Positions 11,301 to 55,870 of a DNA stretch of 59,062 bases are shown here, one piece after another. The position numbers were made by a program, and so were the translations under genes. The notes beneath the pieces were generated by a model. That model was not told the DNA's origin, did no database searches, and saw only the letters and a list, made by a program, of their open reading frames with translations. Source of the DNA: a virus. The stretch spans positions 1-59,062 of IMG/VR virus record IMGVR_UViG_3300025467_000019; one strand, written 5' to 3'. Numbering within the stretch: position 1 is the first letter of the stretch; each line of letters opens with the position of its first letter.

Positions 11301-11439
11301 CTGAATTAGTTGGGTAATACGTAACACCAACAGCAGGATTACCAGAATAACCTGAGTAACCTGATATACCAGAATATCCAGATTGACCTGAATAACCTAT
11401 TGGACCTTGAATTGCTTGATATACGAAAGTGTTACTCAT
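8368..11439 (-). CDS. collagen-like tail fibre with C1q-like domain, 1023 aa
   Basis: Modular fibre. Residues ~1-40 hold a short Gly-X-Ser start. Residues ~40-215 are a globular beta domain (YYPTNSASDLGITYG to STGIYRGA) with a close paralogue in the 2042-aa fibre. Residues ~215-435 are Gly-X-Ser triplets. Residues ~440-580 read as a C1q/TNF-like beta-sandwich (GWYNPSNFRFTPTVAGYYNV, ending near TYFSANLIAYG), a fold that usually trimerises. More triplets run to ~700. Then a beta-rich part, a NYITKWSG segment typical of phage fibres, and a ~125-residue C-terminal domain almost the same as in the 2042-aa fibre. This is most likely a trimeric host-binding fibre. The C-terminal tip is the probable receptor-binding or trimerisation end (inference). 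Two further fibre genes lie upstream in the same transcript. Confidence 0.8.
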   Translation of the reverse strand: MSNTFVYQAIQGPIGYSGQSGYSGISGYSGYSGNPAVGVTYYPTNSASDLGITYGYLSQIPESASQSSINYTISASQGVTTLGQLITQVGDPELTFLSKGTWVFTAYYSITGSQVGSSTTNLIHSIYRRTTGGTEVQLFSAQGDALTNTDTSNPAEQQQSYTIGTPITLTADGSDRLVYRVFAKTTAVNGVAVQFYYLGTDHYSNISTGIYRGAVGVSGISGYSGYSGISGYSGISGYSGTSGWSGYSSFSGYSGISGYSGISGYSGVSGYSGYSGVSGYSGTSGWSGYSGVSGTSGWSGASGYSGISGWSGYSGISGYSGISGYSGTSGWSGYSGVSGTSGYSGTSGTSGVSGTSGYSGTSGTSGISGWSGYSSFSGYSGISGYSGTSGTSGWSGTSGWSGTSGYSGVSGFSGTSGWSGYSGTSGFSGLPGQFAASNYLTVAQLSGDTVVTSSLDRIVPFVASIDPNGWYNPSNFRFTPTVAGYYNVTYQVWWSVGSTVTNQTNIQFRKNGATQAINQTQILSGIGYTQTESKIVYLNGTTDYMDFTVYSGNPTNQTIQQGGGAGQGTYFSANLIAYGNSGYSGYSGISGWSGTSGISGYSSFSGFSGTSGWSGTSGISGYSGISGYSGVSGYSGTSGTSGPSGISGFSGTSGISGWSGFSGFSGFSGTSGISGYSGTSGISGYSGFSGTSGVSGYSGMLPTYTLPETYGTSGYVNIGTWNTSQGGCVLVMEIASHAGYNASTSQDQYTTLYFKTSNNSSSQSGVSGAFYADGVAVYNGGLGANSQSPSNFYIVQNNSSSYTIYAVFGVYSQNSWYRINVTPGTSWTNSSTIAVPTGNYLQITPTVNIIGSGTSNYITKWSGSFATTNSIIQDNGTTVTVGGNLNINGGIVTEQTVLETTSNTGLAPAATTNFDVLTQGIQFYTSNNANNWVLNIRGNSTTTLNSTLGVGQTVTLALIVTNGATPWYQTATQIDGTAVTPKWQGGSAPSSGNANANDIYTFSVTKLTSTPTYAVFASIATFK
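9350..9710 (-). repeat. Gly-X-Ser repeat block, distal block of the 1023-aa fibre
   Basis: The codons read (Gly-X-Ser)n with X mostly Tyr, Thr, Ile, Phe and Trp. Synonymous codons vary from unit to unit, so the repeat is strict in protein but loose in DNA. Confidence 0.85.
10140..10790 (-). repeat. Gly-X-Ser repeat block, proximal block of the 1023-aa fibre
   Basis: About 215 residues of Gly-X-Ser triplets lie between the N-terminal beta domain and the C1q-like domain. X is Tyr, Trp, Ile, Thr, Val, Phe or rarely Ala. No proline occurs within the regular triplets, apart from the exit into GLPGQF. Confidence 0.85.
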
Positions 11440-12243: not shown

Positions 12244-13527
12244 TTAAATAATGTTCCAGTTGTTGTTAAATATGATTTCTATTGCAGCATAATTACCTAC
12301 CATTACTGCTGTAGGTAAACCATCAATGGTGTTAGGTGTAGTGGCAGAAACTGTAATAGTATAATTGTTATTAGTTATTACTCCTGACTCGTCTTTAATA
12401 TAATACTTTGTACCGGTAATACCAACTGGTAATACAACCACTGCATTACCTGGGTAATTAACTCCAATATAATAATCGTTAGCTGTTGCTGTATAAGTTG
12501 ATAATGAATCTGAATAAGTTGTATATAGTTTACCAACCACAATACCAGAGTTCTGTATGCCGCGTTCATTTACTACTACTGCTGTAGATGAAGTAATAGC
12601 GCGCATAATTGGTTTAGAAACTGTGTTAGCTGCACTTGGAGAATACGTTACTGTAGCACCAGCTGTAACATCGCTTAAGTAATAGCACTCCCCAGGGGTT
12701 AAACCTATTAAACCATTTATTAAACCGTCATATACAATTGTAAATTGTGTTGCTGTAGCAGTTTGTACCACACCGGTTGCTTCAGCATGAGTTGCACTGT
12801 CAGCTTGTGCTAAATACCAACCACCAGAAGTGTTATCAAGTCTCACTACTTGACCAGCACTAAATGTGTTAGTGTATGTAATAGTTTGACTTGAAATGTT
12901 AACCGGGGAACCACTAAAGCCTGATACACCGCTAAAGCCGCTAAAACCTGATGTACCTGAATAACCAATGTAACCAGAAATACCGCTATAACCACTATAG
13001 CCTGAAGTACCCGAGTAACCGCTTATACCACTAAACCCGCTAGTACCGCTAAAACCTGAAATACCGGAATATCCAGAAAAACCTGATGTACCAGAATAAC
13101 CTGATGTACCACTAAAGCCTGACGTGCCTGAATAACCGCTATATCCAGACCAACCTGATGTACCAGAAGCGCCGCTAAAACCTGACGTACCTGAATAACC
13201 AGAAGTGCCACTAAACCCTGACACACCACTAGAACCTGAAATACCAGAATAACCACTAAAGCCTGATACACCTGAGTAACCACTTACACCTGAGTAACCG
13301 CTTATGCCGCTGTAGCCTGAAAAACCAGAAACACCTGAAGTACCGCTGAAACCGCTTGTACCAGACCAACCACTATAACCGCTGTAGCCAGATGTACCAC
13401 TAATACCTGACCAACCAGAGACGCCTGATGTACCAGAAACCCCTGAAGTGCCAATATATCCTCTGACACCACTATAACCAGAATATCCAGATACACCTAC
13501 AGGATTATAAATTTTATCAAAAGCCAT
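12244..13527 (-). CDS. collagen-like tail fibre, 427 aa
   Basis: First gene of the minus-strand fibre operon. Residues ~1-12 are a short N-terminal anchor (MAFDKIYNPVGV, similar to the YNPIGV start of the 2042-aa fibre). Residues ~13-205 are Gly-X-Ser triplets. Residues ~207-320 form a globular domain (ITYTNTFSAGQVVRLD; then GVVQTATATQFTIVYDG; then CYYLSDVTAGA) shared with the 632-aa and 2042-aa fibres. The C-terminal ~100 residues are a separate beta domain (YYIKDESGVITNNNYTITVS, ending NNNWNII) of a type common at the ends of phage fibres. The shared short anchor suggests that two fibres dock to the same virion site (inference). A palindromic TAAATATTTA box lies 11 nt upstream. Confidence 0.8.
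   Translation of the reverse strand: MAFDKIYNPVGVSGYSGYSGVRGYIGTSGVSGTSGVSGWSGISGTSGYSGYSGWSGTSGFSGTSGVSGFSGYSGISGYSGVSGYSGVSGFSGYSGISGSSGVSGFSGTSGYSGTSGFSGASGTSGWSGYSGYSGTSGFSGTSGYSGTSGFSGYSGISGFSGTSGFSGISGYSGTSGYSGYSGISGYIGYSGTSGFSGFSGVSGFSGSPVNISSQTITYTNTFSAGQVVRLDNTSGGWYLAQADSATHAEATGVVQTATATQFTIVYDGLINGLIGLTPGECYYLSDVTAGATVTYSPSAANTVSKPIMRAITSSTAVVVNERGIQNSGIVVGKLYTTYSDSLSTYTATANDYYIGVNYPGNAVVVLPVGITGTKYYIKDESGVITNNNYTITVSATTPNTIDGLPTAVMVGNYAAIEIIFNNNWNII
12910..13490 (-). repeat. Gly-X-Ser repeat block of the 427-aa fibre
   Basis: About 190 residues of Gly-X-Ser triplets with X mainly Tyr, Phe, Thr, Ile, Val and Trp, bounded by the N-terminal anchor and the shared VVQ-type globular domain. 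Confidence 0.85.
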
Positions 13528-17558: not shown

Positions 17559-18626
17559 ATGTCCGTAGATTACCCAAATTTAATATTTCCACACGAGTTA
17601 CCAACAGTACCAGGTCTATCCGGACAGGATCTAATTTACCTCGAACAACCAAACGGTGATGGTACATACACCTCATACGCGATTTCTTTATCTGCTTTAT
17701 TTGGATGGAGTGGTGCAAGTGGTGGGGGTGGTGGTGGCTCAGGTGTGTCGGGTTATTCTGGTGTATCAGGTTATTCAGGTGCATCTGGTGCACCTGGTGG
17801 TACGTCCGGTTGGTCCGGTATTTCAGGTTATTCTGGTGCGACTGGTATTGCAGGTACACCTGGCGCTTCAGGTATATCTGGTTACTCTGGTGCTACAGGC
17901 GCTACAGGTCTTGCCGGTATTTCAGGCTTCTCTGGTTATTCTGGTGCAGCTGGTTCAGATTATACTTTCCCGTCAAACTTAACGGTATCTTTAGCTGCAG
18001 GCTATACATTTGGTCAATACAAAAACGGAGATGTTATACCTGCTGCAGGTTTAACAGTACAAGAAGTTATCAATTTAGCTATAAGCGGTACAATACCTAC
18101 CCCTACTCCTACTCCAATACCTACTATTACCCCTACACCAACTGTTACCCCAACAGTTACTCCTACTCCTACTCCTGCAGCTACTCACACCCCTACACCG
18201 ACACCTACAATTACACCTACTCCAACAGTAACACCTACTCCTACACCTACCCCAACTCGTACTCCTACCCCGACCCCTACCCCTACTGTTTTAACTGGTG
18301 TAATTTATTTCGGTCCATCTGCAGCAGTACCAACAACTTCAAGCGACGTACAAGCTTTAAGTTCAACTTATACAAACGGTGCAAATCCATTTAATTTCTG
18401 GACTGGTACGGCATATAACAATTTTACAGTAGCTTTACCTACTACAAATAGTTTAGTAAGCATAATTGATGCGAATGCGTTCTTCGTTGATTTAACTGAT
18501 CACTTCAGCACTCAAAGCACAATAAGCATAACTGTAGGTGGAACTCCTACTAACTATAACCTATATACTATGACAAACGCTATACCATATAGCCCTTCAC
18601 ATAAACTATTAGTAACATTTTCATAA
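17559..18626 (+). CDS. collagen-like fibre with Thr-Pro stalk, 355 aa
   Basis: Modular structural protein. Residues 1-50 are an N-terminal adaptor-like domain ([35 protein letters not shown]). Residues ~52-130 are Gly-X-Ser and Gly-Ala-Thr triplets, including a Gly-rich joint (GGGGGGS). Residues ~177-248 are an almost pure Thr-Pro repeat, a rigid extended stalk often O-glycosylated in other systems. Residues ~250-355 form a beta-rich C-terminal domain beginning [21 protein letters not shown] infer a short fibre or whisker. The Thr-Pro stalk is a plausible glycan acceptor for the glycosyltransferases encoded later. It is followed 1 nt after its stop codon by the 632-aa fibre gene, which makes one operon. 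Confidence 0.7.
18096..18292 (+). repeat. Thr-Pro-rich repeat tract
   Basis: About 65 residues are (Thr-Pro)n with occasional Ile, Val, Ala or Arg. In DNA this is a run of ACTCCTACC-like units with scattered synonymous changes. Confidence 0.85.
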
Positions 18627-20641: not shown

Positions 20642-23600
20642 ATGTCAATAACACGTGGCGCTTTTTCTGCAGTTTACAATCCAATCGGTGTATCAGGTTA
20701 CTCTGGTTACTCTGGTTCAGGTGTATCAGGCTGGAGTGGTATCTCTGGCTTTTCTGGCTGGTCCGGTATTTCCGGCTTTTCTGGTGTATCAGGCTGGTCT
20801 GGTATATCTGGTTACTCTGGTTGGTCTGGTATTTCAGGCTACTCTGGTGTTTCTGGTTGGTCAGGCATTTCTGGCTGGAGTGGTATCAGTGGTTGGTCTG
20901 GCATAAGTGGTTATTCCGGTTGGTCTGGTATCAGTGGTTATTCTGGTACGTCTGGTTTTAGCGGCACGTCAGGCTTTAGCGGTTACTCTGGTGTATCAGG
21001 CTTTAGTGGTTATTCTGGCACCTCAGGCTTTAGCGGTTATTCTGGTTGGTCTGGTATTTCTGGTTATTCCGGTACTTCAGGCTGGAGTGGTTATTCTGGT
21101 TGGTCCGGCATTAGCGGCTTTAGTGGTGTATCAGGTTGGTCTGGTATATCTGGCTACTCTGGCTGGTCTGGTATTTCTGGTTTTAGTGGCGTTTCTGGTT
21201 GGTCTGGTATTTCAGGCTATTCCGGCGTTTCTGGTTGGTCAGGTATTTCAGGTTATTCCGGTTGGTCCGGCATTTCTGGCTACTCTGGCGTTTCTGGTTG
21301 GAGCGGTATTTCAGGTTGGTCAGGTATTTCTGGCTTCTCTGGCGTCTCTGGTTGGTCAGGTATTTCTGGCTTCTCCGGTGTATCTGGTTGGTCTGGCATA
21401 AGTGGTTACTCCGGTTGGTCAGGTATTAGCGGTTATTCTGGCTGGTCTGGTATTTCCGGTTGGTCTGGTATTTCAGGTTATTCTGGTACATCAGGCTTCT
21501 CTGGTGTCTCTGGTTGGTCTGGTATTTCCGGCTTCTCCGGTGTTTCAGGTTGGTCTGGTATTTCTGGCTACTCTGGCTACTCTGGTTGGTCTGGTATTAG
21601 CGGCTATTCCGGTTGGTCTGGTATTTCTGGTTATTCTGGCGTTTCTGGTTGGAGCGGTATTAGCGGCTTTAGTGGTGTATCAGGCTACTCTGGTTGGTCT
21701 GGTATTTCTGGTTATTCCGGCTGGTCTGGTATTTCAGGCTTTAGCGGTGTATCAGGTTGGAGCGGCATTTCAGGCTACTCTGGTTGGTCTGGTATTTCTG
21801 GTTACTCCGGCTATTCCGGTCAAGACGGTACATCAGTAAAGATTCTTACATATGTAGCAGATGCATATGTTAATCCACCAAACGATCCTCAATCAACATT
21901 AAATACTGCTGCACCATTTGCAGTTAATGGCGACGGTGTTATTGACGAAAAAACAGGTCATTTATGGGTATATACTAATGAAGTAATAACAGTATACCCA
22001 ACAGCAAAGTATTATGGTGGTACAAATCAAAGCAGTCCTACTTCATTAAGAGTATATGCTTCAACACCAGCAGTTGTTCCTGTAGCTGGTGAAAAAGTTA
22101 CAGATGGTATATCTCAAACAGGTATTGCAACAGTAACACCTGGTTCTGATGTTAACGGTACATATTATGACTTAACATTAGATACAGCACAAGATTTTTC
22201 AAATCCAACAACCATTCAAATTCATGCAGATGGTCACTGGACTGACGTTGGTCAAGTAAAAGGTGATTCTGGCTATTCTGGTTGGTCTGGTATTTCAGGT
22301 TGGTCAGGTATTTCTGGCTGGTCTGGTATTTCTGGTTATTCCGGTACATCAGGCTTCAGTGGTACATCAGGCTTTAGCGGTACAAGCGGCTTTAGTGGTA
22401 CTTCTGGTTATAGTGGTTATTCAGGTGTATCTGGCTGGTCTGGTATATCCGGTTTTAGTGGTGTATCAGGCTGGAGCGGTATTTCAGGCTGGTCTGGTAT
22501 TTCAGGTTGGTCCGGTATAAGTGGCTATTCCGGTACATCAGGCTTTAGCGGTGTATCTGGCTACTCTGGTTGGTCAGGCATTTCTGGTTACTCTGGCACA
22601 TCTGGCTGGTCTGGTATTTCAGGCTTCTCCGGTGTATCTGGCTGGAGTGGTATTTCTGGCTGGTCTGGTATTTCAGGTTGGTCAGGTATTTCAGGCTTTA
22701 GCGGTGTATCAGGCTGGAGCGGTATTTCAGGCTACTCCGGCTGGTCTGGTATTAGTGGCTTTAGTGGTGTATCAGGTTGGTCAGGTATATCTGGTTGGTC
22801 TGGTATAAGTGGCTTCAGCGGTGTATCAGGTTGGTCTGGTATTTCTGGTTGGAGCGGTATATCCGGTTATAGTGGTGTTTCAGGTTGGTCTGGTATTTCA
22901 GGCTATAGCGGCGTCTCTGGCTGGAGTGGTATATCTGGCTTCTCTGGTGTATCAGGTTGGTCTGGTATTTCTGGTTGGTCAGGTATTTCTGGTTATTCCG
23001 GTACTTCAGGCTTTAGCGGTTATTCCGGCTGGTCTGGTATTAGTGGTTATTCCGGTACATCTGGCTTTAGTGGCTACTCTGGTTGGTCTGGTATAAGTGG
23101 CTTTAGCGGTACTTCCGGTACGTCAGGCTTTAGCGGTTATTCAGGCGTATCTGGCTGGTCTGGTATTTCAGGTTGGTCTGGTATAAGTGGCTATTCTGGC
23201 TACTCTGGTTGGTCTGGTATTAGTGGTTATTCTGGTTGGTCTGGTATTTCAGGTTGGTCTGGTATATCTGGCTACTCCGGTTGGTCTGGCATTAGCGGCT
23301 TTAGTGGTGTTTCAGGTTGGTCTGGTATTTCAGGTTGGTCTGGTATTAGTGGTGCTGACGCAACATTACAATTAACAATACCATATGCTAACGACTTTAC
23401 ACCAGGTACTGTAATTTACAGAGCACAAGACGGTACATATCAACGCGCAAAAGCAGATGATATTACTACAGTAGATGCAATCGGTATCGTACAAGATGCT
23501 AATGGTAGTCAATTTACGATCGTTTATAACGGTCAAATTTCAAATCTAGCTGGTTTAACTGACGGATACGGTTATTACTTATCTGACACAACAGCTGGTA

Positions 23601-26600
23601 TGTTAACCGATACAGCTCCAACAGTGAGTGGCTCGTTCATTAAACCAATGTTAATTGCTACAGGTTCTACAACAGGTGTTGTAGTTGAATACCCTGCTAC
23701 ACAAATTGGTTCTACAAACAACGGTTCAAGCGGTTATCTAGCACGTTGGACAGGTTCACATACAATTGGTAACAGTAGTATATTTGATACAGGTCCAGAC
23801 GTTACAATTGATGCTAATACAGTAGTTACAGGTAACTTAGCTGTATCTGGTACTATTGTAATGAACGGTGCTGACTTAAAGGGTTATTCCGGTATATCTG
23901 GTTTCTCAGGTTATTCTGGTCTAAACGGCGCTGGTGCTGCTTCAGGTTATAGCGGTTTCTCTGGTACATCAGGCTTTAGCGGTTACTCAGGTTGGTCTGG
24001 TATTTCAGGCTTCTCTGGTACATCGGGCTTTAGCGGTACATCTGGTATTTCAGGCTTCTCTGGCGTATCTGGCTTCTCTGGTGTTTCTGGTTTCTCCGGT
24101 ACATCAGGCTTTAGCGGCTTTAGCGGCTTTAGCGGTACATCAGGCTTCTCAGGCTTCTCTGGTACATCAGGCTTCTCTGGTACATCAGGTCATAGCGGCA
24201 CAAGCGGCTTTAGCGGTTACTCAGGTTGGTCTGGTATAAGTGGCTTTAGCGGTATATCAGGCTTTAGTGGTACTTCAGGTACATCAGGCTTCTCTGGTAC
24301 ATCAGGCTTTAGCGGCACAAGCGGCTTTAGTGGTACAAGTGGCTTTAGCGGTTATAGTGGTACTTCCGGTATATCAGGCTTCAGTGGTACTAGTGGTATA
24401 TCAGGCTTTAGTGGTATATCAGGCTACTCTGGTACATCTGGTATAAGTGGCTTTAGCGGTGTATCAGGCTTCAGTGGTACGTCAGGCTTCAGTGGTACAT
24501 CAGGCTTCAGTGGTACATCAGGCTTCAGTGGTACATCAGGTACTAGTGGTATATCAGGCTACTCTGGTACAAGTGGTACTAGTGGTATATCAGGCTACTC
24601 TGGTACATCAGGTATAAGTGGCTTTAGCGGTATATCAGGTTATAGTGGCGTATCGGGTTATTCAGGTACATCAGGCTTCAGTGGTACATCAGGTACTTCT
24701 GGTATATCAGGCTTTAGTGGCACATCAGGTTGGTCAGGCTATTCCGGTACATCCGGCTACTCTGGTACATCAGGTGTGAGTGGTTATTCTGGTTCAGGTA
24801 TATCTGGTTTCTCCGGTTATCCTGCAGTTGGTATAACATATTACCCAACAACTTCAGCTTCTGAATTCAGCATACAATACGGTATATTAAGCGAAGTACC
24901 TCAATCTACAGCACAAACGTTTACAGCTTATACATTAAGTGCTTCAGAAGGTTTAATAACATTAGGTCAAGTTGTAACACCAATCAGTGATCCAGGTGAA
25001 ATTGAACTCGGTAAAGGTACATGGCAGTTCAATGCATACTATGCATTAACAGGTACTAACCCATCAACAACTACAACAACCTTAAAGCACTCTATATATA
25101 AGAGATCATACCCAGGTGGTACTGAAACATTATTATTTAATGTTATTAGTGATCCGCTTGTTAATACAGATACTGCTAACCCAGCGCTAAGCATTACACA
25201 GTACACAATTACTACACCGATAGCTCTTGATATAACTGATAGATTAGTTTATAGAGTACAAGCTCAAACAACCGATACAGACGGTGTAACAGTTGAATTC
25301 TATTATGGTGGTACAGACCACTATAGCTTTATTTCAACTGGTATATACCGTGGTGCTACTGGTACATCAGGCTACTCTGGTTATTCTGGTACGTCTGGTT
25401 ACTCTGGTACATCTGGTACGTCTGGTGTAAGTGGCTACTCCGGTACATCAGGCTTTAGTGGTTACTCTGGTACATCAGGTACATCTGGTATATCAGGTTA
25501 CTCCGGTACATCAGGCTTTAGCGGTACATCTGGTATATCTGGCTACTCTGGCACATCGGGTTATTCAGGCTACTCTGGCACATCTGGTATATCAGGTTAC
25601 TCTGGTACATCAGGTACATCTGGTATATCAGGTTACTCTGGTATATCTGGCTACTCTGGTACATCTGGTATATCTGGCTACTCTGGCACATCGGGTTATT
25701 CAGGCTACTCTGGCACATCTGGTATATCAGGTTACTCTGGTACATCAGGTACATCTGGTATATCAGGTTACTCTGGTATATCTGGCTACTCTGGTACATC
25801 TGGTATATCTGGCTACTCTGGTACATCTGGTATATCAGGTTACTCTGGTACATCAGGCTACTCTGGCACATCTGGTACATCAGGCACATCTGGTATATCA
25901 GGCACATCTGGTATATCAGGCTTCTCTGGTACATCAGGCTGGTCTGGTACGTCAGGCATTTCTGGTTATTCTGGTATATCAGGTTGGTCAGGCTACTCTG
26001 GTACATCAGGCTGGTCTGGTACGTCAGGCATTTCTGGTTATTCTGGTACATCTGGTACATCAGGCTGGTCTGGTACGTCTGGTATAAGTGGCTACTCCGG
26101 TACATCTGGTTGGTCTGGCTACTCTGGTACATCAGGCTGGTCTGGTACATCTGGTATATCTGGTTACTCTGGTATATCTGGCTGGAGCGGTACATCTGGT
26201 ATATCTGGTTACTCTGGCGTATCAGGCTTTAGTGGTACATCAGGTTGGTCTGGTACATCTGGTTACTCAGGCCCTGGCGCAAATCAAACCTTAAACACAA
26301 CTTCAAATGTAGTGTTTGCTTCATTAAGTGCTGCTACATTATCAGCATACAATGTAAGTGTTACAGGTATATTAGCAATAGGCGATGTAACTGAAACTAC
26401 AACCAATACGGGTTCAGCTCCTGCAGCTACTACAAACTACGATACATTAACACAAGGTATACAATACTATACATCAAGTAACGCAAATAATTGGACATTA
26501 AACCTTCGCGGTAATAGTACTACTACATTAAACAGTGTATTAGGCGTAGGTCAAACAGTTACAGTTGCTCTTGTTACTACTAACGGTGCTACTCCATACT

Positions 26601-26770
26601 ATCAAACAGCAATACAAATTGATGGTAGCGTGGTAACGCCAAAATGGCAAGGTGGTTCAGCTCCTTCGTCAGGCAACGCAAATGCACTCGATGTTTATAC
26701 AGTATCGGTGACTAAGACAGCCGCAACACCAACATACCTAGTATTAGCTTCCGTCGCGACATTCAAATAA
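20642..26770 (+). CDS. giant collagen-like tail fibre, 2042 aa
   Basis: The largest gene of the window. Layout by residue: ~1-17 anchor (ends YNPIGV, as in the 427-aa fibre); ~18-393 Gly-X-Ser triplets; ~393-541 globular domain ([20 protein letters not shown] to [15 protein letters not shown]); ~542-903 triplets; ~903-1080 globular domain shared with the 632-aa and 427-aa fibres; ~1081-1395 triplets; ~1395-1572 beta domain ([15 protein letters not shown] to STGIYRGA) shared with the 1023-aa fibre; ~1573-1878 triplets; ~1879-2042 C-terminal domain almost the same as that of the 1023-aa fibre. About two thirds of the chain is (Gly-X-Ser)n. If it forms a trimeric triple helix at about 0.29 nm per residue, the repeat parts alone would span several hundred nm (inference). 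I read it as a long host-range fibre. Confidence 0.85.
20690..21830 (+). repeat. Gly-X-Ser repeat, block 1 of the giant fibre
   Basis: About 375 residues. Trp, Ile, Tyr and Phe dominate position X, with GWSGISG and GYSGWSG as the most frequent hexads. Ser uses TCT, TCA, TCC, AGT and AGC, and Gly mostly GGT and GGC, in no fixed order. Confidence 0.9.
22265..23360 (+). repeat. Gly-X-Ser repeat, block 2 of the giant fibre
   Basis: About 360 residues with the same Trp-Ile-rich composition as block 1, which suggests that blocks 1 and 2 arose from each other by duplication. Confidence 0.9.
23880..24830 (+). repeat. Gly-X-Ser repeat, block 3 of the giant fibre
   Basis: About 310 residues. Here Phe and Thr replace Trp as the main X residues (GFSGTSG hexads), so each block has its own composition. 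Confidence 0.9.
25360..26275 (+). repeat. Gly-X-Ser repeat, block 4 of the giant fibre
   Basis: About 305 residues rich in Tyr, Thr and Ile at X (GYSGTSG), shifting to Trp and Thr near the end. It contains the exact 135-bp tandem duplication. Confidence 0.9.
25523..25821 (+). repeat. exact 135-bp tandem duplication in the giant fibre gene
   Basis: Positions 25523-25657 and 25658-25792 are identical base for base (45 codons each), and about 29 bases of a third copy follow to 25821. Elsewhere in the repeat blocks the synonymous codons differ, so this is a recent slippage or unequal-recombination event. Confidence 0.85.
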
Positions 26771-44991: not shown

Positions 44992-46935
44992 ATGAAAACA
45001 TTTCCATCAATATATTTGGGTGTTGTAGTACAAAATAATGATCCAGAGTATCGTGGTAGAGTAAAAGTTTGGGTACCACATGCTAATTCAGGGGTTTATA
45101 ATAAATGGGCTGCTCTTAAACAAGACCGCACATTTAAGTTTCCAGGTATTAATATAGACTCTGATTTGAGTTTAATTATAAACGATCTAAAGGATAGTTT
45201 ACCTTGGGCTGAGCAGTGTAGTCCGTTAATGGGTGAAAATGCTTCCGGTACATATAATGCTTATACGGACAAGTCTACTGTTTCTGACGCAGAATACCCT
45301 TATAGTTTATCAGGTACAAATTTTTCAAATTCTTATGCTCAATTTAACTTAAACCAGGAGCGTATGGGAGAGAAACCTGGCTTTGTGTATGAAAAGTATA
45401 ACATGAGGCCGGTAGATGCGTTTACTGATACTACTGCAAATAAAACTAATAACGTAAACCCTACAGGTACACAGTATCGTCCATCAACATATTCAAATGC
45501 CGCTAAAGGTGTATTTTCTATACCAAAAGTAGGCGCTCATGTATGGGTGTTTTTTAGAGACGGAATACCGACGTATCCGGTTTATATGGGTACTTCTTTA
45601 GGTGGAGATGATTTTGCTAGTATATTTAATACTACAGATGGTGACTATCAAGATTACCCACAAACATTTGAAAGTTTAGGTAAAAATACAAGAAACAATG
45701 AAGATCTAAATACTGAAACATACCGCAACAAAATGGTTATTAATCAGCGTGGTGCTGCTTTAGAAATTGTTAACACAACAGATAGAGAATCATTTAAAGT
45801 TACACACTTTGCGGGCGGGTTTTTAGAATTCAACAACAAATATAATTCTTTATTTAGCCCTAAAAACCTACAACTTTTAACATTAAGAGATAAGTTTGAA
45901 ACAGTAAAAGGTCACAATAACCTTTGGGTAGGTAGAGATTTTGATAATATAATACAAGGTGATTATTTTGTTAAAACCGGCAACCTAAATCAAGCTGCTA
46001 TGGCTAACTGGGTTACAGCTTACACCGCTATAGCTAATATATTAGCTTTACCGGAAAGTGATGGTTCAAAAAACACTCTAGCTGCAACAGTAGCCGCCCA
46101 AGCACAAGCTTTAGCTGCTGCTGAAGCAGAGTTAGGTTTTGGTGGTAATTATATTGAAACTGTAACCAAACATAAACTCGTTAACATAGGTTTAGTGTTT
46201 AATCAATTTGCAAGCACAAGATATAACGGTACAGCTAAAACAATTACGCAATATTATAATAATACAGGTACAGCTACTACAACTATACCCGCTATAGAAT
46301 ATACACACATAGATGATATGCCTGGTGGTAATTACACTGTAACCGCTGGTAATAGATATAATTTACTAGTGGGTTCTGGTGGTATAGATATTAAAACAAC
46401 AGGACCAGTTAATTTGGGTGGTACTATACTAGCAGTTGCAGGTAAACAAGTTAATATTGCGTCTTCAGATGATACTAACATTGATGGTGGTACTAATTTA
46501 TCGGTTATAGCTAATATAATGACTTTGAGAACACGTAATCGGCAGCAAGTATTAATTGATGACAATTTGGGAGTAAGTCAAAATGTAGTAATCGGTGGTG
46601 GTCAATATCTTAAAGGAGAAACATATTTACAGCATGTTACTGCACCGGTAGAATTTCAAGTTACAGAGTCTACCAAAATTACAGATACTGGAGCACAAAT
46701 TAGTAAACCAGGTGGTGGCATAATATATAGCGGGGATACTGTCACGTTAGTAATTAATCAATCCCATACCCATTACTTTAAAAATTTACCGTTACAATTA
46801 GTTGCTGATCCTTCTACATTAAACACTCAAGCCGCTGCGGTTAACGGACCAAATACAGCAGTTGCGGCAAGCAGCCCAACTACCCATCATAATTCAGCTG
46901 GTTCAATATCAACACCTATCAACGGACCTGCTTAA
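44992..46935 (+). CDS. baseplate central spike (gp5-like, without lysozyme domain)
   Basis: Cell-puncturing spike of the hub. The N terminus SIYLGVVVQNNDPEYRGRVKVWVPH (residues 6-30) is the OB-fold start of gp5/VgrG proteins. A second OB-fold part, GVFSIPKVGAHVWVFFRDGI (about 173-192) with PVYMGTS, completes it. From about residue 447 the sequence turns to short beta-repeat units (GGNYTVTAGNRYNLLVGSGG; VQQVLIDDNL-type strands), expected for the triple-stranded beta-helix needle. T4 gp5 carries a lysozyme between these parts; I see no EAEK-like lysozyme signature here, so wall lysis must come from elsewhere. C-terminal HTHYF and THHNS stretches could bind a tip metal ion. Confidence 0.65.
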   Translation: MKTFPSIYLGVVVQNNDPEYRGRVKVWVPHANSGVYNKWAALKQDRTFKFPGINIDSDLSLIINDLKDSLPWAEQCSPLMGENASGTYNAYTDKSTVSDAEYPYSLSGTNFSNSYAQFNLNQERMGEKPGFVYEKYNMRPVDAFTDTTANKTNNVNPTGTQYRPSTYSNAAKGVFSIPKVGAHVWVFFRDGIPTYPVYMGTSLGGDDFASIFNTTDGDYQDYPQTFESLGKNTRNNEDLNTETYRNKMVINQRGAALEIVNTTDRESFKVTHFAGGFLEFNNKYNSLFSPKNLQLLTLRDKFETVKGHNNLWVGRDFDNIIQGDYFVKTGNLNQAAMANWVTAYTAIANILALPESDGSKNTLAATVAAQAQALAAAEAELGFGGNYIETVTKHKLVNIGLVFNQFASTRYNGTAKTITQYYNNTGTATTTIPAIEYTHIDDMPGGNYTVTAGNRYNLLVGSGGIDIKTTGPVNLGGTILAVAGKQVNIASSDDTNIDGGTNLSVIANIMTLRTRNRQQVLIDDNLGVSQNVVIGGGQYLKGETYLQHVTAPVEFQVTESTKITDTGAQISKPGGGIIYSGDTVTLVINQSHTHYFKNLPLQLVADPSTLNTQAAAVNGPNTAVAASSPTTHHNSAGSISTPINGPA

Positions 46936-46952: not shown

Positions 46953-46973
46953 ATAACGTATTTAATACGTTAT
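46953..46973. promoter_or_regulatory. perfect 21-nt palindrome overlapping the mutase start codon
   Basis: ATAACGTATT (46953-46962), one central T, and AATACGTTAT (46964-46973) are exact reverse complements. The right end overlaps the ATG at 46972. It contains GTATTTAA, part of the recurrent late-type box. A dimeric repressor operator or a start-codon-masking hairpin could both be imagined. Confidence 0.5.
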
Positions 46974-48084
46974 GTACGATTATTTAATAGTAGGTTCAGG
47001 ATTATACGGTTCTGTATTTGCCCACGAAGCTAAAAAAGCAGGTAAAACATGTCTAGTGCTTGAAATGAAAAAACACATAGGTGGTAACATATACACTAAA
47101 GACTATAATGGTATACACATACATGAATACGGCCCTCATATATTTCACACCTCTAGTAAAAAAATATGGGATTACGTGAATCAGTTTGCAACGTTTAATA
47201 ACTTTGTTAATAGGCCTAAAGTAAACTATAAGGATAATTTGTATTCGTTCCCAATAAACCTATTAACACTTTATCAGTTATGGGGAGTTAAAACACCACA
47301 AGAAGCTATTGAAAAGCTTAATAAAAGTAAAATAAAAATAGATAACCCTAAAAATCTTGAAGAATGGTGCTTAAATGAAGTAGGTACGGAATTATACGAA
47401 ACGTTTATTAAAGGATACACACAAAAACAATGGAAAACTAACCCTAAAAACTTACCATCGTTCATTATTAAAAGAATACCTATAAGAACAAATTTTGACG
47501 ACAATTATTATTTTGATACTTATCAAGGTATACCTATAGGGGGTTATACTCAAATAATTGAGAAAATGCTTGACGGTATTGAAGTTAAGCTCAATGTTGA
47601 CTATCTAGCAAATAAAGACGAGTGGGATAAAAAAGCTAAAAAAGTTCTATACACCGGCCCAATAGACGCGTATTTTAATTATTGCTTTGGAGATCTTGAT
47701 TACAGGACTACAAGTTTTGAGCATATATACAAAGAAGTAAAAGATTATCAGGGTAATGCATTAATTAATTATACTGATGCAAATGTACCGTACACTCGTA
47801 TTATTGAACACAAACATTTTGACTGGGTAGATAAAAACTTTACAGTTATAACAAGAGAGTATCCAGAAAATTGGAAACGTGGTTTGACACCGTATTATCC
47901 AATCAATGACGATAGAAACACTAAAGTTTACAAAAAATACAAAGAAAAATCTCAAACTTTAAAAAACGTGCTATTCGGTGGTAGGCTTGCAGAATACAAA
48001 TACTATGATATGCATCAAGTTATAGCAGCTGCTTTGCACGATTTTGAAAAAGAAAACAGTGGTATTATTAATAACAGTTTATAA
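46972..48084 (+). CDS. glf: UDP-galactopyranose mutase
   Basis: FAD enzyme that interconverts UDP-galactopyranose and UDP-galactofuranose, the donor for Galf-containing glycans. The 370-residue length is standard. Residues 1-13 hold the Rossmann GxGxxG (VGSGLYG, 7-13). GGNIYTKDYNGIHIHEYGPH (38-57) with IFHTS is the highly conserved second motif of the family. The middle holds FPINLLTLYQLWG, and the end has FGGRLAEYKYYDMHQVIAAA, where Arg binds the nucleotide sugar phosphates. It opens the glycan cassette and probably supplies a Galf donor to a transferase encoded downstream. A 21-nt palindrome overlaps its start codon. Confidence 0.9.
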   Translation: MYDYLIVGSGLYGSVFAHEAKKAGKTCLVLEMKKHIGGNIYTKDYNGIHIHEYGPHIFHTSSKKIWDYVNQFATFNNFVNRPKVNYKDNLYSFPINLLTLYQLWGVKTPQEAIEKLNKSKIKIDNPKNLEEWCLNEVGTELYETFIKGYTQKQWKTNPKNLPSFIIKRIPIRTNFDDNYYFDTYQGIPIGGYTQIIEKMLDGIEVKLNVDYLANKDEWDKKAKKVLYTGPIDAYFNYCFGDLDYRTTSFEHIYKEVKDYQGNALINYTDANVPYTRIIEHKHFDWVDKNFTVITREYPENWKRGLTPYYPINDDRNTKVYKKYKEKSQTLKNVLFGGRLAEYKYYDMHQVIAAALHDFEKENSGIINNSL

Positions 48085-48094
48085 TTACTTGAAT

Positions 48095-49384
48095 ATGGCA
48101 AAGAAAACTAAACCTCGCATTTTTGTACAACTTGCTTCGTATAGAGACCCGCAATTAGTACCCACGATTAATGATATGTTAGCAAAAGCTGCTAACCCTG
48201 ATCAATTTTCATTTGGTATTTGCTGGCAATATGGAGACGATGAAGATCCAAATATCTATGATAAAAAGAAAAACTTTAGAGTGGTTAAAAAGAAATGGAC
48301 AGAAAGTCAAGGCTTAGGGTGGGCACGTAATATTACCAATTCTCTTTATAAGGGAGAAGAATTCACTCTACAATTAGATTCTCATCACCGTTTCGCCCAA
48401 GACTGGGATAAAATGTTGCTTGAAGATTATGAGCAAGCATTAACAATGTCTCCAAAGCCAGTTATTACAACTTACTGTACACCATTTGACCCTGAAAAAG
48501 AAATTACAGATTTTGGCCCTTGCTTAATGTCTCAATACGAGTTTAGTGCAGATAAGTTACTAATGAGTATGCCATGGTATATTCAAGACTACAAAACACG
48601 TAATAGAGTTATACGTGCACGCACTATAAGTGGTCATTTTATGTTTGCAGCAGGTAAGTTTATTGAAGAAGTACCCTACGATCCAGACATTTATTTTGGT
48701 GGCTACACAGAAGAAACAACAATGAGTGTAAGAGCGTGGACGACCGGTTATGATTTTTTTAGTCCTTACCGTCAATACATTTGGCACGAATATACACGTA
48801 GTTATCGCGTTAAACACTGGGATGATCATGGTACAGAAAAACATACCGGTAAAACTTCAGGTGAAAGAGATGTCTATGCTCGTAACAAAACACGTCAAAT
48901 ATTTGGTCAAGAAGACCATGGTATTGACTTAGGTATATACGGTTTAGGTACAGCCCGTACTTTACAGGAATATGAAAAGTTCGGCGGTTTTGACTTTAAA
49001 AATTGTAGAATACAAGACTATACATTAAAAGTAAATGAACCACCGAACCCTACAGATTATAATACGCAATTTATTAGTAAAGGACGTAAAATACACATCG
49101 ACTGGGATATAGGGTTTTTCTTGAAAGAAAAACAAGAAGGAGATGAGGTGCAATTTTTAACTTTCGGTGTATTGACTCAAAGTGACGTGGAACTATACAG
49201 ACAAGACTTTACTAGAGAAAAGAACCCTAATCATGTTGATTTTAAAGTCAACGAGCACGGAGCAGCATTTCGTAGTATAGATAAGCCTTATAAGATTGTT
49301 ATGTATGCAAACTGGAAAAATAAAGGCTGGGGTAATAGATACGAAAGAGTAATACCTACACTTGCAATGCAAGAAGGACCATGA
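48095..49384 (+). CDS. GT60-like glycosyltransferase (Skp1-hydroxyproline GlcNAc-transferase relative)
   Basis: The 429-residue product matches GlcNAc family PF11397 / CAZy GT60, known from Dictyostelium Gnt1, which adds GlcNAc to a hydroxyproline of Skp1. Diagnostic parts: RIFVQLASYRDPQLVPTI (8-25), FGICWQYGDD (40-49), GLGWARNI (73-80), and GEEFTLQLDSHHRFAQDWD (87-105), where the DSHHRF core is the metal-binding acidic motif. ISGHFMFAAGKFIEE with YFGGYTEE follows. I choose ATG 48095 over an upstream in-frame start that overlaps the mutase. The C-terminal ~120 residues are an extra domain. The acceptor here is unknown; collagen-like viral fibres or Thr/Ser residues are candidates. Bacterial and viral members exist, so the eukaryotic function need not hold. 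Confidence 0.8.
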   Translation: MAKKTKPRIFVQLASYRDPQLVPTINDMLAKAANPDQFSFGICWQYGDDEDPNIYDKKKNFRVVKKKWTESQGLGWARNITNSLYKGEEFTLQLDSHHRFAQDWDKMLLEDYEQALTMSPKPVITTYCTPFDPEKEITDFGPCLMSQYEFSADKLLMSMPWYIQDYKTRNRVIRARTISGHFMFAAGKFIEEVPYDPDIYFGGYTEETTMSVRAWTTGYDFFSPYRQYIWHEYTRSYRVKHWDDHGTEKHTGKTSGERDVYARNKTRQIFGQEDHGIDLGIYGLGTARTLQEYEKFGGFDFKNCRIQDYTLKVNEPPNPTDYNTQFISKGRKIHIDWDIGFFLKEKQEGDEVQFLTFGVLTQSDVELYRQDFTREKNPNHVDFKVNEHGAAFRSIDKPYKIVMYANWKNKGWGNRYERVIPTLAMQEGP

Positions 49385-50559
49385 GAATTGTCTTTATATT
49401 AATAGGTAATAGTAGAAGAAGTAACTATTTAGACGGTGACACCCTTCGCTACGGCAATGGAGGGGGGTCTGGAACTGATTCTAGTACTATTGTGGTTGCC
49501 GAGCAATTAGCTTTACATGGCCACGAAGTAGTAGTTACTTCTGATAAACTCGAACCATTACTTGAAGAAGAGTATGCAAAACAGGGTGTACATTTCAATG
49601 CAGGTAAAAAGGTAAGAGGTGTATACTATACCGACATTAACTTTACAAACATTGAAAGTAAAGCTTTTGATGTTATTATAAGCAGTCTATGGTTTCATGA
49701 CTACTCTAAACTGCCTATAACTGTTAGTAAAGCTATAATTTATTGGTGCCACATGCAATGGATATACGGTATAGGCGAAATTACAGATTATGCAAAAGCT
49801 AATAATTTAAGAATAGGCTTTGTTAACATTTCTAGTTGGGAAAAAAGCATGAATCAAGATGTAATTGATAATACAGTCACTCAATTACCAAACACTATAA
49901 GCAAAACTATTCCTAACCCGATAATGGATGACATTATTAATGAAGTACTTGCTACCAATCCAGTAAAAAAGAAACATAAATTTGTTTTTCATGCTTCTTG
50001 GGCAAGAGGTGGTAACGTAGCTATACAGTCTATAAGAGATTTAAACTGGCCAGATGCAGAATTACATGCATTTGACTATTTAATGACTATACATAATCAT
50101 GAAGATTCGTTTTTTCATAAACATGCCGGGGTTGATAAACAAACGCTTTTTACCCATATAGCAGAAAGCGAATATTTTGTATACCCTCTTTATACACCTT
50201 ATAAAGATGTACATAAGGACACATTTTCATGCGTGGTAGCAGAAGCAATAGCACTTGGTGCAGTACCTGTAACTTATCCGCTCGGCGCTTTACCTGAAAA
50301 CTTCGAAGGCTACTGTGCATGGCTAGACTTTCCAGCAAGAGCAGATCCGGAAGTTATGCAAAAAGAATCTTTATCTAAAGATGAGACTGGTCTGTTTACT
50401 TGTACTGATAATATCGTTAAAAAGTTAAACTACTTAGACAATAACCCGGAGTTAAAACAGAAAGTTCAAACTGAAGGTAAAAAATTTATATTAGATAAAC
50501 TCAACGCAAATAAGGTAGGTAATATGTGGGTTGAGTTTATAACTGAACTCACTACATAA
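49381..50559 (+). CDS. GT-B glycosyltransferase (GT4-type)
   Basis: The 392-residue product reads as a two-domain GT-B transferase. The N-terminal domain has MRIVFILIG, a Gly-rich GNGGGSGTDSST loop (25-36) that replaces the typical GG donor/acceptor loop, and an EQLALHGHEVVVTSD helix-strand (41-55). The C-terminal domain begins KFVFHASWARGGNVAIQSI (about 199-217). KDTFSCVVAEAIALGAVPVT (about 274-293) is the E-x7-E-like donor-binding motif, with CVVAEAIALG diagnostic of retaining GT4-like enzymes. It overlaps the GT60-like gene by 4 nt (ATGA type), which points to one operon. The sugar donor cannot be told. Confidence 0.75.
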   Translation: MRIVFILIGNSRRSNYLDGDTLRYGNGGGSGTDSSTIVVAEQLALHGHEVVVTSDKLEPLLEEEYAKQGVHFNAGKKVRGVYYTDINFTNIESKAFDVIISSLWFHDYSKLPITVSKAIIYWCHMQWIYGIGEITDYAKANNLRIGFVNISSWEKSMNQDVIDNTVTQLPNTISKTIPNPIMDDIINEVLATNPVKKKHKFVFHASWARGGNVAIQSIRDLNWPDAELHAFDYLMTIHNHEDSFFHKHAGVDKQTLFTHIAESEYFVYPLYTPYKDVHKDTFSCVVAEAIALGAVPVTYPLGALPENFEGYCAWLDFPARADPEVMQKESLSKDETGLFTCTDNIVKKLNYLDNNPELKQKVQTEGKKFILDKLNANKVGNMWVEFITELTT

Positions 50560-50563
50560 CCAT

Positions 50564-51268
50564 ATGCATAGAATTGTAAGTTTTTATCAAGAGGATCTAC
50601 CTGAGGAACTTGTAGTTTTACAAAAAAGAGTATTTGATCATTTTAGTATACCTCTTGAGCAAGTAAAATTTCCTGTAGATAATAATGGCCATGCTTATGC
50701 TATAGAAGATTACTTAAGAAGTACTCATGATTGGAGTAGTATAACTATATTTGATGTTGACTGTGTACCGTTTGAAAGAGTAGCTATTGATAGAGCATTA
50801 GATCTTATTAAAGACGGCAACACTGTATACGGTAACATACAAGCTTCCAATACCGGAGAGCACTCACCGTACAAATCGCCGCCTTTTGCTGCACCAAGTT
50901 TTTTAAATTTTACACGTAACATATGGGATGATTATATAAAAATATGGGACAATAAAAAAACTACAAACGGGGTATTTCAATTTCAACATTATCCTAATCC
51001 TGACGGTATAGAAGTAGAAGCAGATGTAGCTGAGGTTTTTACTAGAGAAAATGAAAAACGAGGTGTAAGGATAATGCTAGCATATCCTACTAAAAGCCCG
51101 TATGATGATACATGGAAGTATAAAGCGTATTTTGGTTATCCTTATTTCTCATACGGCAATTGTACTGAGTTTGCTAGTGGGACTTGTCATAATTTTCAAA
51201 TTAGAATACCCGACAAACAGAGATACTTTATTAAATATTGCAACAACATATTAAATGAAAATAAATGA
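50564..51268 (+). CDS. GT-A-like protein with DxD motif
   Basis: The 234-residue product has SITIFDVDCVPFERVAIDRAL (59-79), whose DVD at 64-66 follows a hydrophobic strand as the metal-binding DxD does in GT-A transferases. The N terminus (HRIVSFYQEDLPEELVVLQK) is a strand plus helix, and a later region (GVFQFQHYPNPDGIEVEADV, about 143-162) could be the acceptor side. The lengths and motif spacing match no single CAZy family I can name. Position within the cassette, 4 nt after a GT-B gene and overlapping a GT25 gene by 14 nt, supports a transferase role. Confidence 0.55.
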   Translation: MHRIVSFYQEDLPEELVVLQKRVFDHFSIPLEQVKFPVDNNGHAYAIEDYLRSTHDWSSITIFDVDCVPFERVAIDRALDLIKDGNTVYGNIQASNTGEHSPYKSPPFAAPSFLNFTRNIWDDYIKIWDNKKTTNGVFQFQHYPNPDGIEVEADVAEVFTRENEKRGVRIMLAYPTKSPYDDTWKYKAYFGYPYFSYGNCTEFASGTCHNFQIRIPDKQRYFIKYCNNILNENK

Positions 51269-51932
51269 GTTTTTTCAAAAAGGGTATTATATTAATTTGG
51301 ACCGACGTACTGATAGAAGAGCTGAGTTCGAACAAGAAGTCAAAAGAATTGGTCTAGAGGGTTTTTTTGAAAGAGTACCTGGCGTAGATGGTAGTAATGA
51401 ACCGTCTGAACTAAAGAAACATAACTATTGTGGTGCTTCATATGCAAAGATATTTAAAGATGCAAATGAGAAGGGGTACGAGCGGTTTTTAATATTTGAA
51501 GATGATGTACAGTTTTTTGATCGTGATGGTGTGAGTGGTTTAGAATTGATTGAAAAAGCTTTAGATCAATTACAGAAATTCCCTGACTGGGATATGATAT
51601 ATTTCGGGTGCTACACTTTTGATAAAACTATTTATCATGTTTCGGAGAATTTAATTTCAGCTAATCAAATATTAACTACACATGCAATTGGTTATAATAA
51701 GAAAGGAATGCATATGTATCTACAATATAATCCTTTCTTTCACTGCCCTATTGATGGGTGGTTAGGTGAACGTAAAGAACTTACAAAATATATAGTGTAC
51801 CCTTTAGCAGTAATACAAAGAGAGAGTAGAAGTGACCTAGATGCATGGGGTTGGGCACCTAATGCTTTCCATTGGGATGAAAACTTTATTAAAAAGCATA
51901 GTAAATTAATACAAACATTTGAAATAGAATGA
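51255..51932 (+). CDS. GT25 family glycosyltransferase
   Basis: The 225-residue product is a compact member of glycosyltransferase family 25. YYINLDRRTDRRAEFE (11-26) is the family start, followed by VPGVDGS (41-47), CGASYAKIFKDANEKGYERF (59-78) and LIFEDDVQFFD (79-89), where the EDD acts as the metal-binding acidic motif. DWDMIYFGCY later corresponds to the next core strand, and PIDGWLGE near the end to a further acceptor-site motif. GT25 includes bacterial LPS galactosyltransferases and the animal collagen beta-galactosyltransferases. With Gly-X-Ser collagen-like fibres encoded in the window the latter is thought-provoking, although no hydroxylysine can be expected in the repeats, which lack Lys. 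Confidence 0.85.
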   Translation: MKINEFFQKGYYINLDRRTDRRAEFEQEVKRIGLEGFFERVPGVDGSNEPSELKKHNYCGASYAKIFKDANEKGYERFLIFEDDVQFFDRDGVSGLELIEKALDQLQKFPDWDMIYFGCYTFDKTIYHVSENLISANQILTTHAIGYNKKGMHMYLQYNPFFHCPIDGWLGERKELTKYIVYPLAVIQRESRSDLDAWGWAPNAFHWDENFIKKHSKLIQTFEIE

Positions 51933-52765
51933 GTGTAGATATAACATCTAATTATGTTACCTGTCACATGATAGGTAGATTAGGCAATCAAATGTTTCAA
52001 ATTGCTAATGCTTATGCACAATCATTAAGACACAATAGACAATTATTATTACCAAAAAGTGACACCTCTGTAAGTGATTATTTTGATACTGTACACCGTA
52101 AACTACAGTTCATATTGGATAAATCCCCTGTAGATCAACCAAATGTACATACTATACATGCTACATATCATTATACAGAATACAAACCACATGACATAAT
52201 GCCTACTGTATTTAAAGGATATTTTGAGAGTGAAAAGTACTTTATAGATTATAAAGATAAAATAAAGGAACTATTTGGTCCGACAGAAGAATTCATCAAT
52301 GAAGCTTATAGAGAATACCCGCAATTGATTAATGGTACAACAGCAGCTATTAACGTAAGACGTGGAGATTTCTTAACTTTTCCTAAGAGTCATCCTGTAA
52401 TAAGCTTGGATTATATATATAAAGCTGTAGATTTATTACCCAAAGTCGACACTATATTTGTATTGAGTGATGATATATATTGGTGTAAAGATAATATTGA
52501 AATACCAAATGCTATATTTGTACCTTATTCCACGTACAAAGCACTATGGTTTCTTTCTTTATGTAAACACTTTGTAATATCTAATTCAACGTTTTCTTGG
52601 TGGGGGGCTTACTTATCTAAACACCCTACCAAAACAGTTATTGCACCGGAAGTGTGGTTCGGACCTGATATATTATCTCATACCGACCCGAAAGACATTT
52701 ACTGTGACGGTTGGATTAAAGCACCTGCCGTATATGACCCGTCTGGTTTTATTTTACCAGGCTGA
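51929..52765 (+). CDS. GT11 family alpha-1,2-fucosyltransferase-like protein
   Basis: The 278-residue product fits CAZy GT11. IGRLGNQMFQIANAYA (15-30) is the family start. AAINVRRGDFL (138-148) is the GDP-fucose-binding (H)xRRGD motif, with Asn instead of the usual His at its first position. VLSDDIYWCKDNI and later CKHFVISNSTFSWWGAYLS complete motifs II and III. Its start overlaps the GT25 stop by 4 nt. GT11 enzymes add fucose to galactose, so it may terminate a Gal-containing chain built by the preceding enzymes (inference). Its 3' end overlaps by 67 nt the end of a small minus-strand gene. Confidence 0.85.
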   Translation: MSVDITSNYVTCHMIGRLGNQMFQIANAYAQSLRHNRQLLLPKSDTSVSDYFDTVHRKLQFILDKSPVDQPNVHTIHATYHYTEYKPHDIMPTVFKGYFESEKYFIDYKDKIKELFGPTEEFINEAYREYPQLINGTTAAINVRRGDFLTFPKSHPVISLDYIYKAVDLLPKVDTIFVLSDDIYWCKDNIEIPNAIFVPYSTYKALWFLSLCKHFVISNSTFSWWGAYLSKHPTKTVIAPEVWFGPDILSHTDPKDIYCDGWIKAPAVYDPSGFILPG

Positions 52766-52870: not shown

Positions 52871-53365
52871 TTAACTTCTTGGTAAAATATTATCAGTTGT
52901 TAGTACGTAAACCGGTTCTTTAGTTTTAACTTTAAGATTTTCCGGTTTAAAGAACTTATTAGGTACATTTGCAATTGCTTGCCCAATAGACGTTACAGGG
53001 TATTTTTGACCTTTCTTAGATGCATTAAAGTTATATGAACTCTTTTTAATAGAATCAACAACCGTAGCTACATCTTGATCTTCAGGAATCTGTAATACCC
53101 ATCCAACTAGATCTTTATTAATAATTTTATTAGTATCAGATACAAGAATAACAAACTGTTGCTTAGGCTTAGGTTCACCCTCTTCATCATTACCAGTTTC
53201 TTCAGATGCAGCTACTCCTTCTTCAACAGTAGTAGCTGTTTCATCAACAGCTACAGTATTGTTGCTTAAAAGATCAATAATTTCATTGATCTTGTTTTCA
53301 TCCTCTACGGTTTGTTGTAAAGCTGCAACTACAGCTTGTAATTTAACGTACTCTTCTTTTGGCAT
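52871..53365 (-). CDS. hypothetical protein, 164 aa
   Basis: Unrecognised protein. Residues 1-32 are a helical coiled-coil-like part (EEYVKLQAVVAALQQTVEDE), residues ~38-66 an acidic linker, and residues ~70-164 a folded domain (FVILVSDTNKIINKDLVGWVLQI) with alternating strands and helices, ending in VYVLTTDNIL. The small coiled-coil-plus-domain layout suggests a virion-associated or nucleoid protein, but I cannot assign it. It follows the 188-aa gene after 5 nt, and the small basic protein gene starts right after it. Confidence 0.6.
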   Translation of the reverse strand: MPKEEYVKLQAVVAALQQTVEDENKINEIIDLLSNNTVAVDETATTVEEGVAASEETGNDEEGEPKPKQQFVILVSDTNKIINKDLVGWVLQIPEDQDVATVVDSIKKSSYNFNASKKGQKYPVTSIGQAIANVPNKFFKPENLKVKTKEPVYVLTTDNILPRS

Positions 53366-55795: not shown

Positions 55796-55870
55796 TGGTA
55801 CCACCAAGGGGAATCGAACCCCTATTATCGAGATGAAAACCCGGTGTCCTAACCGTTAGACGATGGCGGC
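55796..55870 (-). tRNA. tRNA-Glu(UUC)
   Basis: 75 nt on the minus strand fold as a tRNA. The acceptor stem GCCGCCA pairs with TGGTGGT (one G-T and one G-U end pair), the D arm is TCGTCTAACGGTTAGGAC, and the anticodon loop TTTTCAT carries UUC. The anticodon stem has one mismatch and one wobble. The T arm AGGGGTTCGATTCCCCT is perfect. Discriminator A and an encoded CCA complete it. Sequence matches bacterial tRNA-Glu layout. The 5' end is 3 nt from the stop of the FkbM gene, so the tRNA is probably processed from that operon's transcript. Confidence 0.95.

Follow-up and report, generated by a model that had tools for sequence, protein, structure and literature searches.

The 59,062-base IMG/VR record IMGVR_UViG_3300025467_000019, here called the window and analysed over its full length, carries a cassette of six sugar-related genes. 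The cassette is exchangeable cargo, inserted at a swap site that follows a baseplate gene. The presence of this cassette, and in particular of its GT60-type glycosyltransferase gene, is associated with Thr-Pro (TP) tracts encoded in the same phage genomes. We propose, with a probability of about 0.6, that the cassette serves as a portable module which attaches O-linked glycans to the phage's own TP-rich tail stalk. The terminase, sheath, tube, tape measure and baseplate genes of the window are those of a contractile-tailed phage, and the source is a tailed phage of freshwater type. No similar DNA was found in annotated isolates when 50,697 phage records were compared; at the DNA level, the closest relative is contig 3300006127_000042, with cassette proteins 100% identical to those of the window.

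Cassette genes and their swap site

The six sugar genes named in the original prediction were all recovered by family models, AlphaFold models and fold matches, on the plus strand and in the order given there: UDP-galactopyranose mutase (UGM), GT60-type, GT-B, DxD, GT25 and GT11, enclosed by a baseplate hub-like gene and a conserved gene on the opposite strand (Table 1). The accompanying claim that the genes mostly overlap by 4–14 nucleotides (nt) applies to three of the five junctions (4, 14 and 4 nt). It does not hold for the other two: the GT-B and DxD genes are separated by 4 nt, and the GT60 gene most probably begins with the ATG at 48095, leaving 10 nt between it and the end of UGM. With the TTG at 48044, the listed start, there would be a 41-nt overlap with UGM.

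Four of the proteins are assigned by family models. UGM scores 398.5 bits against the TIGR00031 equivalog (cut-off 303.75), the GT60-like protein 200 bits against PF11397 (E = 8.7e-59, cut-off 21), the GT11 protein 102.8 bits against PF01531 (cut-off 23.9), and the GT25 protein 33.1 bits against PF01755 (cut-off 24), the last over the N-terminal part of the model only. The catalytic residues of UGM, the GT60 motif QLDSHHRF, the GT25 EDD motif, and the GT11 motifs GNQMF and RRGD are kept in distant relatives; DSHHR, a metal/donor-site motif, is invariant across nine diverse GT60 members, and RRG is the conserved portion of the motif that reads RRGD in the window protein. The GT-B protein has no Pfam match, and its placement in the GT-B fold comes from an AlphaFold2 model (pLDDT 91.9) that matches GT4/GT-B structures in Foldseek (PimA, TM 0.66; 7qsg, E = 4.9e-12), the listed ones among 111 PDB matches at E ≤ 0.001 being GT-B type glycosyltransferases. 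The DxD protein belongs to no Pfam or PHROG family, and its DVDC region is kept in six homologues. The corresponding AlphaFold2 model (pLDDT 64) gives weak GT-A-like matches (2y4j, LH3 and the PBCV-1 capsid glycosyltransferase 2p72, best E 3e-3), and a family name from structure was dropped because the model is too uncertain. For the GT60 and DxD proteins, the PDB holds no useful sequence relatives. None of the six proteins shows a clear membrane anchor (over 19 residues, hydropathy peaks at 1.53, and five of the six proteins stay below 1), and the cassette contains no GtrA flippase or GtrB membrane protein, so that it does not belong with the serotype-converting gtr modules.

A scan of 2.9 million IMG/VR viral contigs yielded 51 loci with a GT60 relative, and the GT-B gene is adjacent in 48 of them, which identifies the pair as a conserved unit rather than a product of chance. 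UGM, GT25, DxD and GT11 are variable in presence, shift in order and may be duplicated, with one to three GT25 copies in relatives. The backbones around the cassette also vary, and feature window-type baseplate genes, structural genes with TP tracts, or terminase together with collagen genes. GT25 relatives were also seen in giant uncultured phage genomes of 484–735 kb (LR756501, LR756503, LR756504 and LR756508).

A search with the baseplate gene gave 53 relatives with the same border wherever the locus reaches that far. The content of the site is of four types: (a) the cassette of the window; (b) a tandem pair of GT60 genes from a different clade, plus other enzymes; (c) a single GT60 with a GT25-like gene; and (d) empty, as in two loci (L372 and L384) where the right-border gene directly follows the baseplate gene. 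The glycosyltransferase genes lie directly behind the baseplate gene, a gene context expected for virion glycosylation. In sister phages (L354-L361, L368, L389), two tandem diverged GT60 genes occupy the swap site essentially without a TP tract. Further along in the window (55874-57809, minus strand), the genes for an FkbM methyltransferase (55874-56530) and a tryptophan-halogenase-like protein (56538-57809) are neighbours, and a tRNA-Glu gene occupies 55796-55870; the FkbM and halogenase-like genes are variably present in relatives.

Association of Thr-Pro tracts with the cassette

A DNA pattern encoding TPTPTPT was matched by 40 of the 50 cassette records, compared with 2 of 50 for the reversed pattern, and by 3 of 46 related records that lack the cassette of the window (Fisher's test, 4e-14, kinship ignored). 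Compared with and without the cassette, the pattern was found in 4/9 versus 2/27 records of the window-type lineage, 3/3 versus 1/19 of the DNA-polymerase lineage, and 2/2 versus 0/12 of the XacN1 lineage; the stratified P over the three is 1e-6, although, because records are fragmentary and partly related, these P values are too small and indicative only. Long (TPTP)n is encoded directly upstream of GT60 in a series of loci (L008, L012, L013, L020, L039, L045, L051 and others). Among 25 representatives of other lineages, eight have a TP gene directly upstream of GT60, where TP genes account for 22 of 450 open reading frames (ORFs; P = 2e-5).

Sampling in the reverse direction, a DNA scan for (TP)5T gave 120 loci (1.13 Mb) and a reversed-pattern control 118 loci (1.04 Mb). 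A divergent GT60 was detected by family profile in 10 of the former and none of the latter (Fisher's P = 0.0016), and of 25 additional TP records searched whole, five contained PF11397, versus 0 of 25 controls. On the GT60 tree, at least three label changes are needed to account for the TP-linked members, so the pairing is not limited to one clade. The original prediction had mentioned Thr-Pro tracts only in passing, next to the Gly-X-Ser repeats of collagen-like fibres; this passing alternative is much the better supported of the two, since the tracts accompany the cassette in phages of unrelated lineages.

In the window, the proposed acceptor is a tail-fibre-like protein encoded after a head-closure-like gene (17559-18626, Table 1). 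It begins with a conserved N-terminal region, followed by a short stretch of collagen-like sequence, from which the tail-fibre family matches come, then by the TP tract and a conserved C-terminal domain. The codons of the tract are mixed (ACT, ACA and ACC for Thr; CCT, CCA and CCG for Pro). The alignment shows that, in the same gene of type b and type c sister phages, the place of the tract is taken by a longer, non-TP spacer that looks Ig-like by eye only; the C-terminus is shared with both types and the N-terminus with type b.

Table 1. Positions of the cassette, its borders, and proposed or possible acceptors in the window
Feature	Position	Strand	Basis or remark
Baseplate hub-like gene, left border of swap site	44992..46935	+	phrog_430, weak
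UDP-galactopyranose mutase (UDP-Galf donor synthesis)	46972..48084	+	PF03275, E 5.3e-79
GT60-type polypeptide GlcNAc-transferase-like, proposed initiating enzyme on Thr	48095..49384	+	PF11397
GT-B fold (GT4-like) glycosyltransferase, constant GT60 partner	49381..50559	+	phrog_2170; AlphaFold model
DxD protein, probable GT-A transferase, optional member	50564..51268	+	FDVDC motif; weak fold matches
GT25-family transferase	51255..51932	+	PF01755; EDD motif
GT11-family fucosyltransferase-like	51929..52765	+	PF01531, phrog_2644
Conserved gene, right border of swap site	52871..53365	-	adjoins baseplate gene in cassette-less relatives
Tail-fibre-like protein, proposed acceptor	17559..18626	+	PHROG tail fibre matches, phrog_15511; sister-phage alignment
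Thr-Pro tract, 64 residues (30 Thr, 23 Pro)	18099..18290	+	residues 181-244 of the 17559-18626 protein
Giant collagen-like (Gly-X-Ser) fibre, possible second acceptor	20642..26770	+	444 triplets
Collagen-like fibre, possible second acceptor	8368..11439	-	PF01391, E 8.1e-47
Collagen-like fibre, possible second acceptor	12244..13527	-	PF01391, E 3.3e-30

Among the isolates in the 50,697 phage records, GT60 relatives occur only in Xanthomonas phage XacN1 and in Stenotrophomonas phages CM1 and RAS14, and no isolate has a GT-B relative. Counted in XacN1 and RAS14, TP matches number 29 and 19, versus 0 and 1 for the reversed pattern, and no TP tracts were found in 12 related jumbo phages without GT60. 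The XacN1 relative is ORF334 (33.7% identity), and TP tracts are located in at least nine ORFs of this phage (174, 180, 190, 232-236 and 325). XacN1 thus resembles the window in GT60 and TP-tract proteins, and, as reported in its publication, proteomics detected at least two glycoproteins that the authors suggest are made by the phage's glycosyltransferases (PMC5852040). It differs in lacking a GT-B match and in having carbamoyltransferase and GT9 genes nearby instead. In ORF334-331 (L432:9001-14302), the carbamoyltransferase gene and several unknown genes come after the GT60 gene, which makes for another kind of decoration set.

Besides the overstated P values, several observations count against our proposal. 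The link between GT60 and TP tracts is strong without being exclusive: PF11397 is missing from most TP records tested, and the GT60s of type b and c cassettes are mostly without TP tracts. In the window lineage itself, the cassette and the TP gene are 30 kb apart, and the tract is found in only four of nine type a records. Among bacterial GT60 neighbours, a test for TP-rich genes, made with a crude ORF caller, was not significant. Finally, the main text on XacN1 does not name the glycosylated proteins (PMC5852040).

Proposed pathway and alternative acceptors

From the genes, their conservation, the swap site and the TP association, all of which are direct observations, we infer the acceptor residue, the sugars, the order of steps and the benefit as follows. 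Inside the infected cell, the GT60-type enzyme would put the first sugar, presumably N-acetylglucosamine (GlcNAc) by family precedent, on Thr residues of the tract in the 17559-18626 protein. Lacking clear membrane segments, the enzymes should work in the cytoplasm, the site of tail-protein synthesis. As constant partner, the GT-B enzyme would add the second sugar, and the optional GT25, DxD and GT11 enzymes may extend and cap the chain with galactose (Gal)-type and then fucose (Fuc)-type sugars, likewise by family precedent. UGM would provide UDP-galactofuranose (UDP-Galf) for one chain step, Galf being suggested by family precedent only, and UDP-GlcNAc, UDP-Gal and GDP-Fuc would have to come from host enzymes. 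The expected product would be a stiff, protease-resistant, mucin-like stalk with a sugar coat that could be altered by a cassette swap.

UGM, GT25 and GT11 are common in loci for lipopolysaccharide (LPS), and during infection the enzymes might instead modify a host surface polysaccharide such as the O-chain of LPS, for instance to exclude competing phages. The authors of a study on pelagimyophages read glycosyltransferases linked to tail-fibre genes in this way (PMC7029224). However, the cassette is without flippase, polymerase, ligase, priming transferase or a membrane-anchored GtrA/GtrB-like protein, and modification of a host polymer does not predict that a polypeptide-modifying initiating family should track TP proteins. 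We therefore regard a host-surface target as unlikely.

A target in the Gly-X-Ser collagen-like fibres, with Ser, Thr or Tyr as acceptor, appears improbable as well. Such fibres are abundant in the same genome, where Gly-X-Ser collagen-like genes encoding up to 2042 residues are found on both strands around the terminase gene (8368-26770). In collagen genes pooled per type, Ser occupies the Y position in 94% of type a, 80% of type b, and about 60% of types c and d, a trend that would suit a role of the fibres as second acceptor and that is based on few, related proteins. In L039-L042 and L044, the TP gene adjoins a collagen-like stretch immediately upstream of GT60. PF01391 is nevertheless present in only 16 of the 50 cassette records, many of them fragments, and it occurs also in empty-site relatives (G062, G063, G064, G069 and G077). 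Collagen-like fibres are equally abundant in relatives with an empty site, which retain giant fibres with mostly Ser at Y, and this persistence shows the fibres to be independent of the cassette. A co-occurrence of the enzymes with a collagen-like substrate, as collagen glycosylation would require, was not found, and collagen was rejected as the main target. Of the self-glycosylation of the virion that the original prediction envisaged, modification of the phage's own virion protein is supported, with the collagen fibres not as its main object.

PF11397 takes its Pfam name from the Skp1 enzyme, and a GT60 protein might act on hydroxyproline in the manner of Dictyostelium GnT1, after hydroxylation of tract prolines by a phage 2-oxoglutarate (2OG) oxygenase. 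A 2OG-Fe(II) oxygenase gene (PF13759, phrog_81) is indeed located at 7009-7677 on the plus strand, near the collagen-like genes. The prolyl-4-hydroxylase-like family PF13640, however, does not track the cassette (4 of 25 cassette records versus 6 of 25 others), and this route, whose enzyme activity the original prediction had named among the known features of GT60, was dropped as very improbable. On the same ground, Thr is the more plausible acceptor residue.

The PF11397, GT25 and GT11 families act on proteins or glycans, which argues against DNA as the substrate. Glycosylation of phage DNA, a well-known use of glycosyltransferases (PMC12619734, PMC7029224), is hardly credible here, since the cassette adjoins baseplate genes and no nucleotide hypermodification gene was seen beside it.

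Relation to known systems and wider meaning

The family of the Gnt2-related enzymes of Trypanosoma cruzi and Dictyostelium is CAZy GT60, and eukaryotic enzymes of this kind also act on hydroxyproline. In the Thr-rich mucins of T. cruzi, alpha-O-GlcNAc is attached to Thr by an enzyme related to Dictyostelium Gnt2 (PMC3769586). The likeness to the O-glycosylation of Thr proposed here is one of family: those GlcNAc-transferases, which start O-glycans on Thr-rich mucin-like proteins, are eukaryotic Golgi enzymes, whereas the phage protein has no clear membrane anchor and has its predicted acceptor in the same genome.

Sugar-coating of the virion by phage enzymes is a known principle, and to call such a system previously undescribed, as was done at first, is too strong. 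Mycobacteriophage glycosyltransferases glycosylate structural proteins of their own virion (Freeman et al. 2023, as summarised in PMC12619734), and the XacN1 authors proposed the same for their two glycoproteins (PMC5852040). As described in that summary, however, the mycobacteriophage glycans are located at the C-termini of capsid and tail tube, unlike the GT60-led multi-enzyme cassette and predicted TP tail-stalk acceptor considered here. Virus-made glycans on structural proteins are also found on mimivirus collagen and chlorovirus capsids (PMC9546862, PMC4691112, PMC9614988; PBCV-1 in PMC5852040), but these eukaryotic viruses use other enzyme families, and a link to collagen is not supported in our case. 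The host-recognition cluster of pelagimyophages (PMC7029224) likewise contains glycosyltransferases among the tail-fibre genes of aquatic T4-like phages, together with triple collagen repeats. Its authors assigned the glycosyltransferases to host O-antigen, while the present site is behind a baseplate gene and its genes track a phage protein feature. In the literature searched, we found no description of the GT60/TP pairing or the swap site, nor of GT60 in phages; PF11397 turned up in one paper, on a brown alga.

Relatives of the GT60 protein are also found in bacteria, at 80 loci with 32–43% identity. Because these span many phyla, host assignment by this route was dropped. TP DNA is present in 12 of the 80 loci, compared with none for the reversed control and about 3.5 expected from genome-wide frequency. 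In five bacterial contigs (L461, L453, L451, L455 and L466), TP proteins near GT60 begin with a twin-arginine-like signal, i.e., RR and a hydrophobic stretch, which would fit modification in the cytoplasm prior to twin-arginine (Tat) export. In Paraburkholderia and Trinickia (L465:13072-15561 and L485:14616-16964), genes that are VgrG-like by eye end in very long (TP)n tails and lie about 4–6 kb from the GT60 gene. It is conceivable, as a tentative extension, that GT60 enzymes together with TP proteins constitute a general system of mucin-type O-glycosylation in the cytoplasm, common to phages and bacteria. In such a system, phages would perhaps coat their tail stalks, and bacteria might modify the TP proteins beside GT60 before export. 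Exchange of the cassette at one site would then change the sugar coat of a phage while its backbone is kept.

If correct, the tail-stalk proposal would give a function, and a named acceptor sequence, to the large and little-studied PF11397 family in bacteria and their viruses, and could provide a compact soluble system for the production of mucin-like glycoproteins in E. coli. It would also mean that tailed phages carry exchangeable glycan-coat modules, with bearing on phage stability, adsorption and the interaction with bacterial surface defences.

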